From contig JANQLC010000010.1 in NCBI GenBank assembly GCA_028280815.1, positions 1 to 37,989 of the forward strand: a stretch of 37,989 nucleotides of DNA, read 5' to 3'. The DNA is from Flavobacteriales bacterium (GTDB taxonomy: Bacteria > Bacteroidota > Bacteroidia > Flavobacteriales > JANQLC01). Below are positions 1-37,989 of the stretch, piece after piece. Made by a program: the position numbers and the translations under genes. The first letter of the stretch is position 1; the number at the start of each line of letters is the position of its first letter. A model generated the notes under the pieces. The model saw nothing but the letters and a program-made list of their open reading frames with translations, did not search any database and had not been told where the DNA came from.

Positions 1-244
1 TTGTCGGGTTGATTGGTTGGGTTGGTGGTTCGCCGGTGAGCTTGTCGTGTGTCACACTGGTTTTCTGTCTCGCTTGTCTACTGTGGACTTGTCTTTTGCA
101 GGTTGCTTGTCACTATTGCATTGGCTTGGCGTTAGCTCAGTTGGTTGGATTGAGTGGGTGAATCGAGTGAGGTTGGTCGGCTGGACTGGTGGGTTTGGGT
201 GGGTTGGAGTGAGTGGGTGGAGAGTAGGGTTGATTGGTTGGTTT

Positions 245-370
245 GAATGGGCATAAAGTGTTTGAAAAATGTCTTTGCCATTGGTAGAGCAGGGTTTGGT
301 GATGGCTGCAGATCGGCGACTTTTTTATCTAATCGGCTTTGAGTCGGCGGTGTTTTTGTGTGGATAAGGG
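245..370 (+). repeat. Left-end long repeat, copy A
   Basis: About 125 nt running from GAATGGGCATAAAGTG to GTGGATAAGGG, with a shared core containing GATGGCTGCAGATCGG and CTTTTTTATCTAATCGGC. It is nearly identical to copy B at 506-630, partly matched by copy C at 663-767, and matched with roughly 70% identity by an inverted copy at 37527-37649. An ORF spans copy A on the - strand, but copy B has a 2-nt deletion that destroys that frame, so it is probably not coding. Confidence 0.85.
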
Positions 371-505
371 CTTGCATGGGTTGAGTTGTTTGGGTTGGTT
401 TGGCTGGTTCGCTGATGTGATGGGTTGAATTGTGTTTGGTCGTGTTGATTGGGCTGTTTGACTGGGTTGGGTTGAGCGGTTTGCATGGGTTGTGTTAGCT
501 GGGTT

Positions 506-630
506 GAATGGGCATAAAGTGTTTGAAAGATGTCTTTGCCATTGGTAGAGCGGGGGTTGGTGATGGCTGCAGATCGGCGACTTTTTTATCTAATCGGCTT
601 TGAGCCGGCGGTTTTTGTGTTGGTAAGGAT
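506..630 (+). repeat. Left-end long repeat, copy B
   Basis: Near-identical to copy A over about 120 nt, with substitutions such as AAAGATG for AAAAATG and a 2-nt deletion near 612-616. The flanking sequence is unrelated GT-rich filler. Confidence 0.85.
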
Positions 631-662
631 TTGTGTTGATTTAGTTGAGTGGTTGGGTTGAA

Positions 663-767
663 AGGCGTTTTCCCACTGAGAAGAGGGGGGCTCGGTGATG
701 GCTGCAGATCGGTGACTTTTTTTATCTAAGCGGCTTTGAATCGGCGGTGTTTTTGTGCTGATAAGGG
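663..767 (+). repeat. Left-end long repeat, copy C (diverged 5' half)
   Basis: The 3' two thirds, from GATGGCTGCAGATCGG through the ATAAGGG end, match copies A and B closely. The 5' third (GGCGTTTTCCCACTGAG) is diverged. A short echo of the end of the unit (GTGGATAAAGG) follows near 791-801. Confidence 0.75.
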
Positions 768-908
768 TTTGTGTCGGTGATGGGTTTGCGTGGATAAAGG
801 TTTTTGATTCGATGACGGTTTTGCTTGACTCGTTGGGCTGCGTCTCGGTTGGGCTTACCTCGGGACTTTGTTTGGCTCGCGTTGGCTGTATCTTGGGTTT
901 TGCTTGAC

Positions 909-1519
909 TCAGCGGTTGTTTCGACTTGGGTTGTTTTGCCTGGGCTCCCCGGATAAACTGAAAATGCTATCTAATTTCGCATCTAAACCGGCTTCTTCCG
1001 AACCGTACCTGCCTATGATTACACCTTATTCCGATACCTTGCATCTAACTCGTCATACCGTTGTTCTATCGCTCGCGTTTTGGTTCGCGCTTCGCTTAGA
1101 TAGGTGGCGTATTCATCCTGGACAGGGCATCCTTTTACCAGAGGTGTGAGCTCGACATAATGGCCTCTTTTAGAAAGGTACTGGCTCGTGTCTAAGTCAA
1201 TTTTAATATGGGCGTTTTCGGCAAAAAATGAACACTGCAAATGCTGTTCTGTCTCATCGCTCTCTGTGTTTAAGCCCGTCAATCTCGGCGAACTCAAGTT
1301 TCCTTGAAGTCCAAATTTACCGTTTGCAATTTCAGCTGTATCCGGTTCAATTCGCGAGTTTTCACCGACATCGAAATAGCTTAAAATCACCTTACCGCTC
1401 TTTGTGCCTTTGATGTTGCCGGCGATGGTAAATCCATGTCTTGAGTTTTTGCACCCGCCGGTCAATACCGACAAGCCGGCCAGCACCCAACAGATTTTTC
1501 TACACTTCATATGAATCAT
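909..1519 (-). pseudogene. DUF4369 / TlpA-type thiol-disulfide lipoprotein, truncated and frameshifted
   Basis: The first frame (1519 down to 1019) encodes a 166-residue lipoprotein. Its signal peptide ends at the lipobox LTGGC and is followed by a beta-rich DUF4369-like domain, FTIAGNIKGTKSGKVILSY, then a helical stretch ending DELDARYRNKV. The typical continuation is visible in another frame immediately downstream: IIGRYGSEEAGLDAKLDSIF, reading on to a stop at 909-911. The C-terminal thioredoxin domain with CxxC that normally follows DUF4369 is absent, because the sequence dissolves into the GT/AC-rich repeat block near 940. The family sits in the outer envelope and often follows SusC/SusD pairs, which fits the SusD remnant directly upstream. 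I infer a non-functional gene with a frameshift near 1020 and a lost 3' half. Confidence 0.7.
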
Positions 1520-2474: not shown

Positions 2475-2660
2475 GGGCTTTTCAGCTCAAAAATAGCACG
2501 CCTAAGTAAAAGGGATAAAATAGTGCTGGACTTTCAAACCGCCACATAAGACGAATACAAAAAAATAAGCCACATTTTTAGCCCACCTACAAGACGAGCA
2601 CAGAAAGCCATCGCTAGCGCTTCAAGCCGCCATAAAAAGACAATGACAAAAAGCAAATCA

Positions 2661-2757
2661 GCCTTTCAAATGCAACCCCACGAGGACAAAGGTAAAAAAT
2701 AAGCCCTGCTTTTCAAACTGCTCCCGATTTGATCGACGTTGTGATTGGGATTTTGCA
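2661..2757 (-). repeat. 97-nt dispersed segment with stem-loop, copy 1
   Basis: Read on the - strand this segment matches 18155-18252 (+) almost base for base over ~97 nt, including TCCCAATCACAAC, TCGATCAAAT, GGGAGCAGTTTGAA and TTATTTTTTACCTTTGTCCT. It contains a 7-nt inverted repeat (2722-2728 with 2744-2750) that pairs with one G-U wobble on the + strand transcript. It forms part of the larger tandem array. Confidence 0.8.
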
Positions 2758-2843
2758 GTCGTTTAGGTGAACAAATACAAGGGATAATTCCACATTTCAA
2801 ACCGCCATGACAGGTCAAAAACGAAGAGATAGAACTAACTTTT

Positions 2844-2992
2844 CAGACTACCACGCACGGGCGGATACAAGTAGAGGGGGGCGTAGCGATGTACACATGT
2901 CCGCAGACTACCACGCACGGGCGGATACAAGTCTCGTCTCGTCTATCGATTCGTATGCGCTTGGCAGACTACCACGCACGGGCGGATACAAG
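2844..2992. repeat. CRISPR-like cluster: three identical 28-nt repeats with 32- and 33-nt spacers
   Basis: Identical 28-mers lie at 2844-2871, 2904-2931 and 2965-2992; each begins CAGACTACCACGCACGG and ends GCGGATACAAG. The intervening sequences (2872-2903, 32 nt; 2932-2964, 33 nt) are unrelated to each other. Repeat and spacer lengths fit a minimal CRISPR array, but there is no cas gene in the window, the repeat has no convincing palindrome, and it aligns with the degenerate unit family around it (compare ACCACACGGGATAAAAACAA near 3346). It may therefore be a recently amplified, sharper version of that unit rather than a true CRISPR. There is no evidence for direction of transcription. Confidence 0.6.
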
Positions 2993-3543
2993 CGGGTACC
3001 CCCGGGATTTTAAGCCGACTCGCAGAGACAAGCCCAGAAAACAAGGCCGCCTCTTTAATTGGTGCAGACCGCTGAAACAAAGAATATCCCAGTTTTCAAG
3101 CCGACTCAAGGGGTTAAAGCCGAAGAGACAAGGCCTTCTTCTTACCCCACCACACAGCAAAAAACAGGCAGCTTTTCAAACTGAAATCCGCAAGACAAGA
3201 CCAAAAAATAAGACCGACTTTTCAAACGCTCTCCTTCAGAGATGAAACCCAAAAACCTCGACTTTCAGACACGCCCCAGGTGAAAAATACAATAAAAGTC
3301 AGCGGGGCTGACTACAGAGAGACAAAAAATAAAGGCTGGCTTTTTTAAACCAACCACACGGGATAAAAACAAAAAATAGCCCTTTTCAGGCTGCCCTAAA
3401 AGATTAAAATTCAAAAAATAGGCCTCTGCTTTCAGAATCCCTAAAGCGCGTTACGCCATTCCTTTTTCCGCCGCTGTGCCCTTTGCTGATCCTGTGTCTT
3501 TCTCTGTCGCTGTGCTTTTCTGCTTTTGTGCCTTTTTCTGTTT

Positions 3544-11269: not shown

Positions 11270-11705
11270 AAAAATGTAGTTTTTATCTCTTTGCACGTAC
11301 CCCATATGGCTATTTGAAAAGTCAGCCTCAATTTTTTGTGTTTATCCCCTATGGGGGTCTAAAACCCCAGCCTTATCTTTCTGTGCTGTAGGGCATCTAA
11401 AAATGAGGCTTATTTTTCTTGTCCTATGTGGCGTGAAAGCAGGACTCGTCCCTATGGTCGGTCCCGCTGACTTTTATTAGGCGGTGAAATAAAAACCTCG
11501 AATTTATTCTCTTGCGTTTATCCCGTTTGGGGCTCAGTTTAAAAAGTCGGTTCTGTTTTTCCCTTCGGGCTGCGCTGAAAACTGCGGTTTACGCCTTTGT
11601 CCTCCTGCTGTATGCAGTTGCAAAAGCCCTCTTATCTCTGTTCCCGTTTGACAGCCTGAAAGGCTGATCTCATCTTTTTATCTTTATTCTGTGGGGTTAA
11701 AAATA
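11270..11705 (+). repeat. Degenerate tandem-repeat array downstream of accC
   Basis: About ten units of 36-55 nt read on the + strand as GGCTTATTTTTTG-like start, TTTGTCC or TTTATCC centre, and TTTGAAAAG or TTTAAAAAG end. Examples are GGCTTATTTTTCTTGTCCTA, CGTTTATCCCGTTTGGGGCT and TTTACGCCTTTGTCC. This is the same family as 2519-3440 but in the opposite orientation. It ends about 7 nt before the accC stop codon, so the strand rich in G/T is antisense to accC. Confidence 0.7.
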
Positions 11706-18020: not shown

Positions 18021-18742
18021 GCAGGGACGGGCGTGAACAACAGACTACAGCCCTATTTTTCTGGTGTTGGACTGAAAGGGAACGCCTTTTGTATTCATCC
18101 CTTTGCCATGTGAAATTTGAAAAAGGGGCTTGCGCCGCCCTGCGGTGTCCCGAGTGCAAAATCCCAATCACAACATCGATCAAATTGGGAGCAGTTTGAA
18201 GAGCGGGACTTATTTTTTACCTTTGTCCTGGTGGGGTTGCATTTTGAAAGGCGTCCCCGTGTTTTCGTGCTCATCCCTGCGTGTGGGTTTGAAAGCAGAA
18301 CCTCTTCGTCCCTGTGGTCAGCTGCGTTTAACCCTTCCATACTTGGGAAGCATCTGAAAGACGAAGGATATTTTTTGATTTTATCCTTTTCCAGCGCTGA
18401 GACACCGCTTTGTGGTGCGTTTATTTTTGGTACTGGCTTCTCGCGGAGTTCTAAGTGGATTGGGGGTGTTTCGGGTGTTTGCCATTATGAGAGAGCTGTC
18501 CATCGGTCTTATTTTTTGCCTTTCTCCCTGCGTGGCGGTTTGAAAAAGGGCTTATTTCTCAGCCTTTGTCCTGTGATCAGCTGCAGGGGCTCTTACGCAA
18601 AGCGACCCGGGCCTACATCATCGAGGGCTATACGGGCTATATGATGATTTTAGAGCTACACCGCTGAACCCCAATCCATCGCTACTGGAGAGGCAGGCCG
18701 ATTGGCGCCGCTGATCCCTATCGAGAGGAAGGCGCTTCTCCC
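18021..18742 (+). repeat. Degenerate tandem-repeat array between convergent genes
   Basis: Fills the 0.7 kb between the enoyl-CoA hydratase and rpmA. The + strand is G/T-rich and shows the family unit many times: TTATTTTTTACCTTTGTCCT, CATCCCTGCGTGTGGGTTTG, TTATTTTTTGCCTTTCTCCC then TGCGTGGCGGTTTGAAAAAG, and TTATTTCTCAGCCTTTGTCC. It includes copy 2 of the 97-nt stem-loop segment (18155-18252). From about 18590 to 18742 the unit pattern fades and nothing is recognised. Confidence 0.7.
18155..18252 (+). repeat. 97-nt dispersed segment with stem-loop, copy 2
   Basis: Near-identical to the - strand of 2661-2757. The inverted repeat TCCCAAT (18162-18168) / ATTGGGA (18184-18190) is a perfect 7-bp stem with a 15-nt loop. 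Compared with copy 1, the differences inside the stem preserve pairing on at least one strand's transcript. Confidence 0.8.
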
Positions 18743-19021: not shown

Positions 19022-19630
19022 TCAGTTATCCTTACCGGTCTCTAAGCGATCTTGTAATTCCTTCAACTCGTCCCACTTGCCCTCAGCAGCGAGCCGTGCT
19101 TGTTCAGGCCAGGTAGCCGGGTTGCGCGAAGCATAACGACTGCCCGCATGGGCTAATATCTCTTTTAACTGCGACACAGTTGCCTCAGCCAATTTGGCAA
19201 AGGCATCCACACCGGCCCCGGCCAATACTTCAGATATCTTAGGGCCGATGCCTTCTATTTTTTTCAAATCGTTCGGCCGGGCTTTGGCAGTGGCTCGCTC
19301 AGTTTGGACATGCGAGGGCCTGGTATGCAGCGATTGGATCTCAATCTCGGTAAGGGGCTGCCTGTGACCGTTTTTTTTGCGATACCCCTTCCTCCGATTC
19401 TTCTTAAAGACGATTTTTTTATCGGCCCTCAAATGCGCCAATATTTTCGCAGATACAGAAACACCCGACAAAGTGGGACAGCCTATACCGATGGCATCCC
19501 CCTCTGCAGTGAGCAAAACGCGGTCTAGGCTTACCACTTCTCCAACGTCGCCCTGCAGGCGGTTCACATAGAGCTTTTGATCGGGCTCGACCTTATATTG
19601 CAGCCCCGCTATTTCTACAATGGCATACAT
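19022..19630 (-). CDS. rplU: 50S ribosomal protein L21 with C-terminal helix-hairpin-helix extension
   Basis: The first ~100 residues are L21 (MYAIVEIAGLQYKVEPDQKL, VGEVVSLDRVLLTAEGDAIG, IVFKKNRRKGYRKKNGHRQP), a 23S rRNA-binding protein. Residues ~118-202 form an extra domain with the HhH motif DLKKIEGIGPKISEVLAGAG, then VSQLKEILAHAGSRYASRNP and a conserved WPEQARLAAEGKWDELKELQ tail. Such L21 extensions are found in many Bacteroidota, so it is lineage-typical rather than a local fusion; the tail's role is unknown. The gene starts right at 19630 (MYAIVEIAG), 26 nt after a TATATTTG box. Confidence 0.95.
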   Translation of the reverse strand: MYAIVEIAGLQYKVEPDQKLYVNRLQGDVGEVVSLDRVLLTAEGDAIGIGCPTLSGVSVSAKILAHLRADKKIVFKKNRRKGYRKKNGHRQPLTEIEIQSLHTRPSHVQTERATAKARPNDLKKIEGIGPKISEVLAGAGVDAFAKLAEATVSQLKEILAHAGSRYASRNPATWPEQARLAAEGKWDELKELQDRLETGKDN

Positions 19631-26467: not shown

Positions 26468-27031
26468 ATGGCACGTACGGAATCCAATATGATCGAACTG
26501 GGCACTCGGGCACCGGATTTTACGCTACCCGATATGATTAGTGATACAGAGCTCGCGCTGGCAGATGTGCGGGGTGAAAAGGCGACGGTACTCTTTTTCA
26601 TCTGCAACCACTGCCCCTTTGTGAAACACGTAAATCCCGAGCTGGTCAAACTAACTGCGGATTACCAGGGGAAAGGAATCGGCTTTGTGGCCATCAACAG
26701 CAACGACGTGGAAAATTACCCAGCGGATAGCCCCGAACAGATGAAGGCCGTAGCGGAGCGACTGGGCTATCCCTTTCCCTACCTATACGATGAAACACAG
26801 GCTGTAGCCAGGCGTTACCAAGCGGCTTGCACCCCTGACTTTTACATCTTTGACAAAGACTTACAGCTGGTCTACCGGGGACGATTGGACGACGCCCGGC
26901 CAGACAATGGCAAACCGCTGACGGGAAAAGACATCCGAGCCGCCTTAGATGCCATCTTGGCAAACCAAGCGGTCTCAGCGAACCAAAAACCCAGCATCGG
27001 CTGCAACGTCAAGTGGAAACGGCAGGGATAA
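26468..27031 (+). CDS. Thioredoxin-fold (AhpC/TSA-like) protein with CNHC site
   Basis: A 187-residue cytoplasmic protein (no signal peptide) of the redoxin type. ELGTRAPDFTLPDMI opens the fold; the active site is CNHC (Cys46, Cys49) in FFICNHCPFVKHVNPELVKL. VGFVAINSNDVENYPADSPE-like strand and helix elements follow, and the cis-proline region is ACTPDFYIFDKDLQLVYRGR. It belongs to the widespread CNHCPFVxH group of thioredoxin-family proteins, whose physiological partner is not established. It has its own strong promoter with an almost absent leader. A repeat array follows. Confidence 0.88.
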   Translation: MARTESNMIELGTRAPDFTLPDMISDTELALADVRGEKATVLFFICNHCPFVKHVNPELVKLTADYQGKGIGFVAINSNDVENYPADSPEQMKAVAERLGYPFPYLYDETQAVARRYQAACTPDFYIFDKDLQLVYRGRLDDARPDNGKPLTGKDIRAALDAILANQAVSANQKPSIGCNVKWKRQG

Positions 27032-27330
27032 AGCTGGATTGTGCGAGGCGCCCTTTGTTTTTATCTGTGGGTGGTGGTTTGAAAAGCAAGTCCTCAGCGC
27101 TTCGCTCTTATCCAGCATAAGGGTAAAAAGGGCATTATTTTCTCGGTGTACATCCTTTATGAGGGTTTAAAAAGAAGGCTTATGACCTTATTTTCGGTTT
27201 TTGCCTCTATGGGGCGATTTGAAAGAGGCATGTCTTAGCTTTTGGCGTTTGACCTCTTGAGTCGGTTTGAAAAAAAGAGAGACCTATCTCTTGTTCCTGT
27301 GCTGTGTCCCGGCTTCAAAAGCCCTATTTT
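27032..27330 (+). repeat. Degenerate tandem-repeat array downstream of the thioredoxin-fold gene
   Basis: About six units of the same family on the + strand: TTTATCTGTGGGTGGTGGTT with TTGAAAAG, CATCCTTTATGAGGGTTTAA, TTTTTGCCTCTATGGGGCGA with TTTGAAAG, TTTGACCTCTTGAGTCGGTT with TGAAAAAA, and TGTGTCCCGGCTTCAAAAG. The remaining ~160 nt to the GNAT remnant hold nothing recognisable. Confidence 0.65.
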
Positions 27331-29020: not shown

Positions 29021-29827
29021 CAAAGGGTTAATCCAAGCGGGCTCAGACTAACTGGCCAAAGGGAAAAAGCAAAGAGAGCAGGCCGCTTTTTCAAGGCGAA
29101 AGGTAAGGATAAACCCCGCTTTTCAGACCGCTCCAATTTGATCTTTTAAAGGCGCAATTGGGCTTCTATTCACCTCAAAAGAGCGAGCAAAAAGATAAAA
29201 AGGCAACCCCACTAAAGACAGCCTCACAAAAGATAAAGCACGCAAAGGGATAAGTTGCACAAGGGACGAGTTACACAGAGAATAAGGCACGAGATGAGTT
29301 TTACGAACGATGTTCTTAAACCACGCCAAAAGTCTGGCTTTTCATCGGGCTGCTATAGCCATGGGAGACAAACACAAAAACAAGCCCACAAAGGATAAGC
29401 CACACAAAACATGGGCTATGCCAAATAAGCGTTGCACAGAAGACGAGCCGAGCAAGAGACAATCCGCACAAGGCAAGCCCCCTCAGACCACAGATTAGAA
29501 TAAAAAACGCTTTTAAGCCGATCCACAGGAGGCCAAGAGTCAGCAGAGCCAGCTCCAAGACCAACACCAAAGACAGGTACGACCCGCCAAACCCGCTCAA
29601 AAGGTCAAAGTCAAAAAGCAAGTCACGCAAAAGACAAATGCCAAAAATACTCCTTTTCAGATCATCGTGGAAACGAACACCAAAGAGATGAGCCCTTTTC
29701 TCAAACTGCCACAAAGAGATAAACACAAAGACAAGCCCTATACCCCAACATGCAAGAGGGCAAGAGTTTGCGATAAGCGCCCATGGGTGCGAGAAAGAGA
29801 TCGAAAAGGGATTTTCAGCAAAATGAT
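29021..29827 (-). repeat. Degenerate A/C-rich array between purD and manA
   Basis: The + strand is A/C-rich and shows the family unit in the orientation of 2519-3440: CTTTTTCAAGGCGAAAGGTA, CGCTTTTCAGACCGCTCC, CACAAAGGATAAGCCACACA, CTTTTCTCAAACTGCCACAA then AGAGATAAACACAAAGACAA. Near 29133-29161 CCAATT and AATTGG form an inverted repeat beside TTTGATC, a likely decayed version of the stem-loop in the 97-nt segment. ORFs here are artefacts of the repeat. Confidence 0.65.
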
Positions 29828-32291: not shown

Positions 32292-33083
32292 TCACTTCCG
32301 ATGCCGGTGTATTCTGCTATCATACCTGATGGCTTTGGAATAGGTACGCGTGGGTGGGGCTCGGCGATGCGTCCCGCTATCCGGCCTGAGATTTTTGGAT
32401 CGGCTACGAACAGGTGCGGTTTGGCGATATACCCGGCTATCGTATCTCGGGTTTTTAAAATACCTATGCGTAGGTGGGACTCGGCGATATACCCGGCTAT
32501 CGTATCTCGGGTTTTTGGAATACCTACGAATAGATGCAACAGGGCGCCAAATCCAGTCACCAGCGGTGTAGGGTACGGCCAAAGACCAGCCGACACCCCA
32601 GCCCGGCCAAATTCGGTGATAATACCCCGAGTAATAGCGGAGGTAAAAACAATCCCAGCTGCCATACCACGGATAAGTCCAATCCCAAGCGCTCCAACCG
32701 CCATACAGATAGGGGTACGCATAAAGACCCAAGCCCTCGTCGTATATGTTGATGTGATAGTCGCCGTTCGCGCTTAGATTGGGATGGGATTCCATCTCGG
32801 CTCGGTGGGAATCATCGTAATTTTTCAAGTCGATGTCCGTACCGTAATAAGTCTGTGGGATAGGTGAAGAATGGTTGTCCGCGCGCTCGTATCGCGCTTT
32901 CCACTGCCCTTTTTCAGAACGGTAACCCTCATCCCCACCAGTCGCATAGATCCCATCTGTTTCTTCAGGCGCATAGGCTGTGGGATAATAGGTCGCACAC
33001 GACATGGCGAGAGCCGAGAAAAGCGCAGCGAGCCCCACACAGCAATGGGTGAGGTTCAACCCAAAATCTGTAGCTTTGCCCAT
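32292..33083 (-). CDS. Aromatic-rich lipoprotein with basic C-terminal tandem repeats
   Basis: 263 residues. The signal peptide leads to lipobox ALAMSC (Cys at ~29). Residues ~110-170 are extremely rich in Tyr, Trp and Gly (LYAYPYLYGGWSAWDWTYPW, YLRYYSGYYHRIWPGWG). The C-terminal ~80 residues are four tandem copies of a 19-20-residue basic unit of the form YSKNPRYDSRVYRRxPPT; the DNA of the two middle copies (period 60 nt, around 32425 and 32485) is nearly identical. It is probably anchored in an envelope membrane and adjacent to a porin on the same strand. I recall similar Tyr-rich lipoproteins near proS in other Bacteroidota (sometimes labelled vitellogenin-like), but no function is known. 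The start codon region overlaps the proS promoter, suggesting divergent transcription from one site. Confidence 0.75.
   Translation of the reverse strand: MGKATDFGLNLTHCCVGLAALFSALAMSCATYYPTAYAPEETDGIYATGGDEGYRSEKGQWKARYERADNHSSPIPQTYYGTDIDLKNYDDSHRAEMESHPNLSANGDYHINIYDEGLGLYAYPYLYGGWSAWDWTYPWYGSWDCFYLRYYSGYYHRIWPGWGVGWSLAVPYTAGDWIWRPVASIRRYSKNPRYDSRVYRRVPPTHRYFKNPRYDSRVYRQTAPVRSRSKNLRPDSGTHRRAPPTRTYSKAIRYDSRIHRHRK
33071..33078 (+). promoter_or_regulatory. Bacteroidota -7 box (TAGCTTTG) for proS
   Basis: TAGCTTTG lies 57 nt before the proS ATG, within the first codons of the divergent lipoprotein gene. No clear -33 element. Confidence 0.4.
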
Positions 33084-35923: not shown

Positions 35924-37237
35924 ATGATCCTGATCTATACCCCTCAGATCAACTCGCGCATCGAATACATATTTTCGCATATCTTCCAACACGTGTTGCA
36001 AAGGGAGTTCACGCTAGGCGAAAAAGTAGATGAATTCATCGCACACAAAGGGCCCAAACTGAGCTATGCTGAGCAAGCCTTGGGCAGCGAGTTCTTCGTG
36101 AAGTCACACGGCTTGCTATCCAAGCAAAATATGGAGACATTAGACATCACGGTAGAACGATGGGAGGGGGTTCCCTGTTTTTTTAAAACAGATGAAAACG
36201 CGGCAATCCCCTTTGACATATTTGCCGCCAGCTTTTACCAACTCGCGCGTTATGAGGAATACGCACCGTCAAACACAAATGCTTCGGCGCGCTTTTCCTA
36301 TAGCCACAGTTTGGCCTTTGCCCAAAATTTCTTGCATCTGCCCGTGGTCGATCTGTGGATCTACAAACTGTTTGAAAAATTGCAAGCGCAGTTCCCAGAA
36401 CTGACAACCGCTGACAGACCCACATATTGGCAACAACTACTCATAGTCGACGAGATATACCGCTACAGAGACAAGGGTCTCGTCAGAACGATAGGCGGTT
36501 GGATTGAAGAGGGTATGCGCTTAGACTTCGTGCGCATGATCGAAAGGGGACTCAGCGTATTCGGCTTGCGAAAGGACCCCTACGACAACTTCAAATACCT
36601 CATCCGAATATTTAAAAAATACGAGATACCCACTCGGGCTTTTTTTTCCGTAGGCGCATATGGCACCTACGACAAGAACATTTCACCGTTGCTAAAGCGC
36701 TTTGAGATCGCGGTGAAACACCTCTCTGATTACTTCGCCCAAGGCTACTTGGTTTCATACCAGGCCGCTGAAAAACAAGGGCTGATGCAACGGGAAAGAC
36801 GCAGCTTGAACGAGATCCTAAAACGCGATGTACAGCATGCGCAATTCCACTTGCTACACCTGCGGTTTCCCCTATCATACCGCTACTTAATCGAAGCCGA
36901 AATATTCGACGATTACTCCATGGGATACCTCGAACGCTACGGCTATCGCGCGGGGACTTCGAGGTCCTTCCACTTCTACGATTTGGATTACGAGCAAAAG
37001 ACACCGCTCCTGCTGCACCCCTTCATACTCAGCGACGCCTATATGATGAAGCTATCCCGAAAGCTGACCTCCATAGAATTGGAGTCCTTCTTAAAAGATC
37101 TGTTGCAAAACGCAAAACGCGTGAAGGGGGATTTCACCTTGGCCGTCCACTCCAAGAACTTCGGGGAACACGAGGGCTGGCGGGGCTGGCGCCACTTGTA
37201 CGAATGGGTCTTAGAAATCGTAAAAGCCGAGTTGTAA
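35924..37237 (+). CDS. DUF7033 / polysaccharide deacetylase-like protein
   Basis: 437 residues. The N-terminal ~150 residues (RIEYIFSHIFQHVLQREFTL, PFDIFAASFYQLARYEEYAP) match the DUF7033 half of Bacteroidota polysaccharide deacetylase-like proteins. A NodB-like barrel follows, with YRAGTSRSFHFYDLDYEQKT and LHPFILSDAYM near the end. At the first catalytic strand, where relatives carry a D-x-D before a KG-containing loop, this protein reads LLIVDEIYRYRDKG, so one of the two acidic residues seems replaced; deacetylase activity is therefore doubtful. No signal peptide. Coupled to radC by a 3-nt gap. Specific substrate unknown. Confidence 0.78.
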   Translation: MILIYTPQINSRIEYIFSHIFQHVLQREFTLGEKVDEFIAHKGPKLSYAEQALGSEFFVKSHGLLSKQNMETLDITVERWEGVPCFFKTDENAAIPFDIFAASFYQLARYEEYAPSNTNASARFSYSHSLAFAQNFLHLPVVDLWIYKLFEKLQAQFPELTTADRPTYWQQLLIVDEIYRYRDKGLVRTIGGWIEEGMRLDFVRMIERGLSVFGLRKDPYDNFKYLIRIFKKYEIPTRAFFSVGAYGTYDKNISPLLKRFEIAVKHLSDYFAQGYLVSYQAAEKQGLMQRERRSLNEILKRDVQHAQFHLLHLRFPLSYRYLIEAEIFDDYSMGYLERYGYRAGTSRSFHFYDLDYEQKTPLLLHPFILSDAYMMKLSRKLTSIELESFLKDLLQNAKRVKGDFTLAVHSKNFGEHEGWRGWRHLYEWVLEIVKAEL

Positions 37238-37989
37238 ACCGTTCAAAAACCCAATCCGATCTATTTCACAACGACAAGCCCGATATTTTACCGCAATACC
37301 TGCCCAACCCCTTATTGAGCGTACCGCTATCAGCTGCGCAGCACGGCAAACTCGATTCGAAAAACGCCGCCCAAGGAGCAGAACCGCTATGACATAGCAT
37401 GAGAAAAACCCAGCTACCATACCCAACGCAACAGCGCAAGGACAAACCGACCCAACCACACTGACCCAACTGCACCCATCCAACCGCAACGCAATACAAC
37501 CCAACCAGGCCAATCAATCCAGCGAAATGCAAGCCCGGATCCATACAAAACGCATGCCGAATCAGAACGCCTCAGATAAAAGTTACCAACCTGAAGCCCT
37601 CACCAAGCCCCGCGCTCCCAAGGGCAAAAACGCCTTTCAACACCTGCAAAAGAGCAAAACCAAAGCGCAATCCGCCCTTTTCAAACCCACGCACCCACCC
37701 ACTGAACAACAAGCCCAGCCCAACCACTAACGCAAAGCGGCCTAGCCAACGGCACCGCAACCTACCACAACGCAACGACCCGCCAGCGCACCGGCACAAA
37801 GCAAAGCGGCAATTTACCCGTGCAAGGCAGCTCAGCCCATACGACAATCCAGCCCATGCAACAAACAACTCAGTCGAAGCGCACCAACCACACCCAACGC
37901 ACCAACCCACTGAACAAATCGAGCAGTCCAACCCACGCAACCCAAAACCCGCCTATGCCAACCGTAGAAAAACCCAGGCAAAAGACTCG
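37238..37989 (-). repeat. A/C-rich low-complexity block, no gene
   Basis: The + strand is dominated by A and C with recurring CCAACC, ACCCAA and CAACGCAA words, the mirror image of 1-908. Frames on either strand are low-complexity (Gln/Pro/Thr or Trp/Gly/Leu). It begins directly after the deacetylase stop and runs to the window edge. Apart from the inverted long repeat at 37527-37649, nothing is recognised. Confidence 0.65.
37527..37649 (-). repeat. Right-end inverted, diverged copy of the left-end long repeat
   Basis: On the + strand this reads ATGCAAGCCCGGATCCATAC, continues through CAGATAAAAGTTACCAACCT and CCTCACCAAGCCCCGCGCTC, and ends TTTCAACACCTGCAA. It aligns along its whole ~123 nt to the reverse complement of copy A (245-370) with roughly 70% identity and only small indels. 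The two lie about 37 kb apart in opposite orientation. Confidence 0.7.

Follow-up and report, generated by a model that had tools for sequence, protein, structure and literature searches.

The repeats at the two ends of the window, three at the left (copies A, B and C) and one inverted and diverged at the right (copy R), are likely to be members of a lineage-restricted, non-coding dispersed repeat family of about 130 nt, which sits in polar, G+T-rich, satellite-like islands and would have spread by duplication and by recombination between islands. The window is the whole stretch of DNA analysed, 37,989 bp, and corresponds to contig C31 from its first base to its last. The assembly to which it belongs comprises 42 contigs and 1,593,684 bases and is 92% complete. 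We infer that the genome is Flavobacteriales-like; among its order-level relatives are very small genomes, of 0.3 and 0.6 Mb, which fits the Flavobacteriales.

Copies of the repeat in the window and across the genome

An earlier note on this DNA had described three repeats at the left end and, at the right end, a diverged copy in inverted orientation, set in GT-rich filler on the left and AC-rich filler on the right. Both observations are real. The copies lie essentially where they had been placed, with borders now refined by a profile (Table 1), and the filler has a keto skew, defined as G+T minus A+C, of about 0.55 on opposite strands. Copies A and B are 93% identical, and B is the nearest copy to A; C and B are about 86% identical. 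Ungapped pieces of R are 73-78% identical to the left copies, and R is clearly homologous to A, B and C, far beyond chance. The word GATGGCTGCAGATCGG is common to A, B and C only, with GAGGGCTTCAGGTTGG as its counterpart in R, and the nearest relative of R is not one of the left copies, but C29:42028-42147 (92% identity).

Table 1. Repeat copies, keto-rich islands, contig-end forks and second-family stretches in the window.
Feature	Position	Strand	Details
Core repeat copy A	244..378	+	profile match 110.7 bits, E 3.8e-32; also direct repeat D1
Core repeat copy B	505..638	+	profile match 106.4 bits, E 8.9e-31
Core repeat copy C	656..775	+	5' ~17 nt missing; profile match 90.9 bits, E 6e-26
Core repeat copy R	37526..37645	-	diverged subfamily; profile match 74.6 bits, E 7e-21
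Left keto-rich (G+T) island	1..975	+	holds A, B and C; keto skew up to 0.55
Right keto-rich island	37201..37975	-	holds R; G+T on minus strand; keto skew up to 0.54
Weaker interior keto-rich island	29351..29775	-	right-end polarity
Contig-end fork	1..55		reverse complement of the initial 55 nt of C37 and of C26
Contig-end fork	37891..37989		last 99 nt of C29
Second-family stretches	2500-3450, 11290-11500, 18120-18600, 27030-27300, 29080-29760		

The suggestion that these repeats mark a dispersed element is borne out by a genome-wide count. A profile built from 16 aligned copies and searched across the whole genome gave 26 matches on 12 contigs, 16 of them near-complete, and BLAST found the repeat at 16 places. 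These copies form a dispersed intergenic family: they occupy unrelated non-coding loci, in gaps between the genes called by a simple home-made caller, and are scattered with no tie to breakpoints. Kinship among them is mosaic. Copy C21a is nearest to the C20 copy and C21b to the C32 copy, just as R is nearest to the C29 copy; copies are often paired within one island, yet frequently nearest to a copy in another. Mean flank identity is scarcely above that of shuffles (0.76 versus 0.73 upstream).

The family appears confined to its lineage at the level of the comparison, which covered order-level relatives only: BLAST against 39 order-mates and a profile search of 147 other members of the order each gave no copy. 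Searches of plasmids and phages with the left island gave no match. Among 84,980 GTDB genomes and among viral contigs, a core word gave only single, non-extending 21-nt matches in unrelated taxa, and these isolated matches are chance. In the literature, we found no matching repeat system for this group of bacteria. Small dispersed intergenic repeats are likewise about 100-170 nt long, non-coding, multicopy, intergenic and lineage-restricted, examples being enterobacterial RU-1, at 127 bp (PMC2759123), and pneumococcal BOX and RUP (PMC3049150). Unlike them, the present repeat lacks MITE-like terminal inverted repeats or a MITE-like fold, and it is embedded in a fixed direction in larger polar G+T-rich islands.

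Polar G+T-rich islands and what they may be

We counted 57 keto-rich islands of 0.35-2.5 kb in the 1.16 Mb examined of the 1.59 Mb genome, about 25% of which is non-coding. None was seen in 373 kb from 20 order-mates, a rough control in that GC and coding density differ. The islands are mosaics of several mutually similar repeat units and show weak autocorrelation at 5 nt and at 13-14 nt. All 25 core copies checked are oriented with the G+T-rich strand of their surroundings. Similarly, the 859 island-to-island alignments at E < 1e-6 are all same-strand and none is inverted, although the missing inverted matches are partly forced by composition. Islands are enriched in intergenic gaps where the neighbouring genes converge (odds ratio 2.6, p=0.02). 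A rule based on gene direction was rejected, with tandem contexts divided into 7 same and 9 opposite, and transition-only hypermutation was also rejected, with transitions exceeding transversions just 1.8-fold and diverged copies no more keto-rich than others.

The 4-fold sites in genes carry a small strand effect, a weak form of the leading-strand type of G+T excess. For 40 of the 57 islands, the sign matches that of the local keto skew at these sites (p=0.0007, flipping whole contigs). Because 17 of the 57 islands oppose the local skew, and because neighbouring islands agree in polarity just 21:11, island polarity follows strand skew only in part, as a tendency and not strictly. The left island of the window is among the exceptions, with a local 4-fold skew of -0.072, opposite to its own polarity. 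On C3, the 16S rRNA gene is encoded by the strand that is G+T-rich in the islands of that contig, and the same holds for rpL2 on C2, so G+T probably marks the leading strand. The overall strand bias of genes gave no signal as a leading-strand marker (52% of coding bases; tRNAs 6:7) and was set aside.

In bacteria, the most frequent pattern is a leading strand with an excess of keto bases, and skew is usually weaker at intergenic than at 4-fold sites in the genomes surveyed (PMC2099444). In contrast to the surveyed skew, the islands reach 0.5-0.65, versus about 0.1 at 4-fold sites, and do so in discrete, repeat-built blocks. Their polarity is the only unusual part of the finding. As strand-polar satellite-like repeats within the non-coding quarter of the genome, the islands would offer a way to test the influence of replication direction on non-coding DNA.

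We propose that copies multiply by local duplication, either slippage or unequal, and that they may be moved or homogenised between islands via recombination or gene conversion. Insertions would persist where promoters stay unbroken, mainly 3' of genes. The orientation of the islands tends to track the strand skew that replication leaves, though not strictly, and the leading strand is probably the G+T-rich one. A more ambitious model, possible if on the whole unlikely, is that the islands, built from several related repeat families, constitute a genome-wide polar system marking the replication strand, which may serve chromosome segregation or fork passage, or may arise by strand-specific copying. 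If this were true, the repeat reported here would be the best-conserved unit of that system.

Many dispersed intergenic copies of about 130 nt are also what a miniature transposon, MITE- or REP-like and mobilised by a transposase acting on the core ends, would leave behind, and a weak core copy adjoins the sole reverse transcriptase of the genome. However, we consider such an origin unlikely. The core is not palindromic and has no conserved fold, and it lacks terminal inverted repeats: in the 16-copy alignment, the start, TTGAATGGGCAC, and the end, GTGGATAAGGATTTG, are not complementary. The copies also have their surrounding island context in common. REP/REPIN sequences and the present repeat are both intergenic and repeated, and REPs are palindromes of 20-40 bp tied to RAYT transposases (PMC3116915, PMC3733652). 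Unlike these, the present repeat contains no palindrome, and the genome has no gene for the Y1/REP-associated transposase PF01797. The reverse transcriptase was rejected as a driver of the repeat, since the protein is an AbiP2-type defence protein.

The islands, core included, might instead be selected polar signals, comparable to the FtsK-orienting KOPS or to AIMS, that mark the leading strand for chromosome segregation. Like KOPS and AIMS, they are strand-polar sequences, which here probably tend to follow the leading strand; their polarity correlates with strand skew, their composition is strongly strand-specific and the orientation of the core is fixed within them. Nevertheless, this seems quite improbable to us, given the 17 wrong-way islands and the weak skew of island words outside islands (27:18 for TTGGATTG and 44:37 for GTTTGAAA; 28:9 for TTGGGTTG). 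AIMS are octamers distributed along the chromosome (PMC5993296), whereas the signal here is clumped in islands that are long, degenerate and repeat-built, with many exceptions in polarity.

We give very little credence to the idea that the copies are structured non-coding RNAs or terminators. A short hairpin with a T-tract does occur at the same position in A and B, but terminator-like sites occur at the shuffled rate (2 versus 1.9), there is no covariation (0 two-sided changes), folding z-scores on both strands run from -0.6 to +0.9, consensus energies are -4.4 kcal/mol for one strand and 0 for the other, and neither window end has an Rfam match.

Contig ends at repeats and the proposed inversion

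The dispersed, island-borne family described above also bears on how the window itself is bounded. The earlier note had taken the interval to be enclosed by inverted relatives, but these bounds are forks of the assembly graph inside repeats. Since the window spans contig C31 in full, both of its 'ends' are places where the assembly broke, and they carry copies because short-read assembly could not traverse the repeats. The ends share sequence with other contig ends (Table 1) and fall in islands; the placement of repeats there is therefore a product of the assembler stopping at repeats, not a biological boundary. Across the assembly, the terminal 21-mer recurs near another contig end in 57 of 80 usable contig ends. 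Keto-rich islands account for 4.4% of the sequence yet contain 20 of these 80 ends (p=2e-10), and 12 of 25 repeat copies lie less than 2 kb from a contig end, compared with about 10-14% expected. This provides a clean example of contig ends mimicking biological boundaries. Before a motif that recurs at both ends of a short-read contig is called the boundary of an element, other sequence should be searched for further copies of it.

The remaining proposal, that inverted end repeats drive homologous inversion of the 37-kb interval, is scarcely credible: copies of one family do face opposite ways at the left and right ends, and the polarity of the left island opposes the silent-site skew of the adjacent genes, as at an inversion breakpoint, but both ends are contig ends, no near-identical inverted repeats flank the segment (the left end and the inverted right end match exactly over at most 15 nt, whereas exact matches to other contigs reach 99 nt for the right end, on C29, and 55 nt for the left end, on C37 and C26), the partner of R is on C29, and joining C31 through C37 gives flanks of equal skew in which only the junction island is inverted. 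An exact match of 15 nt is a short substrate for homologous recombination. Elsewhere in the genome, a pair of islands might still mediate an inversion.

Other repeats and genes of the window and genome

A second family, of degenerate intergenic units of about 45 nt with the form TTTGAAAAG...CTTATTTTTT...TTTGTCC, occupies less skewed stretches (Table 1) and is absent from 197 order-mates. Two of its segments, 2668-2761 and 18151-18244, are inverted copies with 93% identity. Intergenic TTTRAAA words show a peak of spacing at 36-51 nt, and the density of GTTTGAAA between genes is 5.7 times that in genes. Upstream of rimM, the 33-nt sequence CAGACTACCACGCACGGGCGGATACAAG occurs three times (2839-2992), with the copies 60-61 nt apart. 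Within the coding part of the window, positions 19022-19630 encode a ribosomal protein L21 that carries an additional helix-hairpin-helix domain at its C terminus, and a 60-bp tandem repeat of 2.4 copies (32392-32537) lies within ORF 32292-33083(-).

Elsewhere in the genome, the AbiP2 reverse transcriptase gene (L023:4043-5599, on the minus strand of C37) encodes 518 aa, matches AbiP2 in PADLOC at E 5e-182, and adjoins groEL and an eroded keto island. A CRISPR-like array at C20:16119-18313 (L042) has 37 repeats with CCCCACGCATGTGGGG at a period of 61 nt. The 7,487-bp contig C40 (L082), circular by a terminal overlap of 99 bp, carries an ORF of 1,099 aa that matches DNA polymerase family B below the threshold, and is possibly a plasmid from another organism that was binned with the genome. 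Finally, the two ends of the 21.7-kb contig C41 carry inverted copies of each other's sequence, which hints at a palindromic or hairpin-ended arrangement, or at an assembly artefact.
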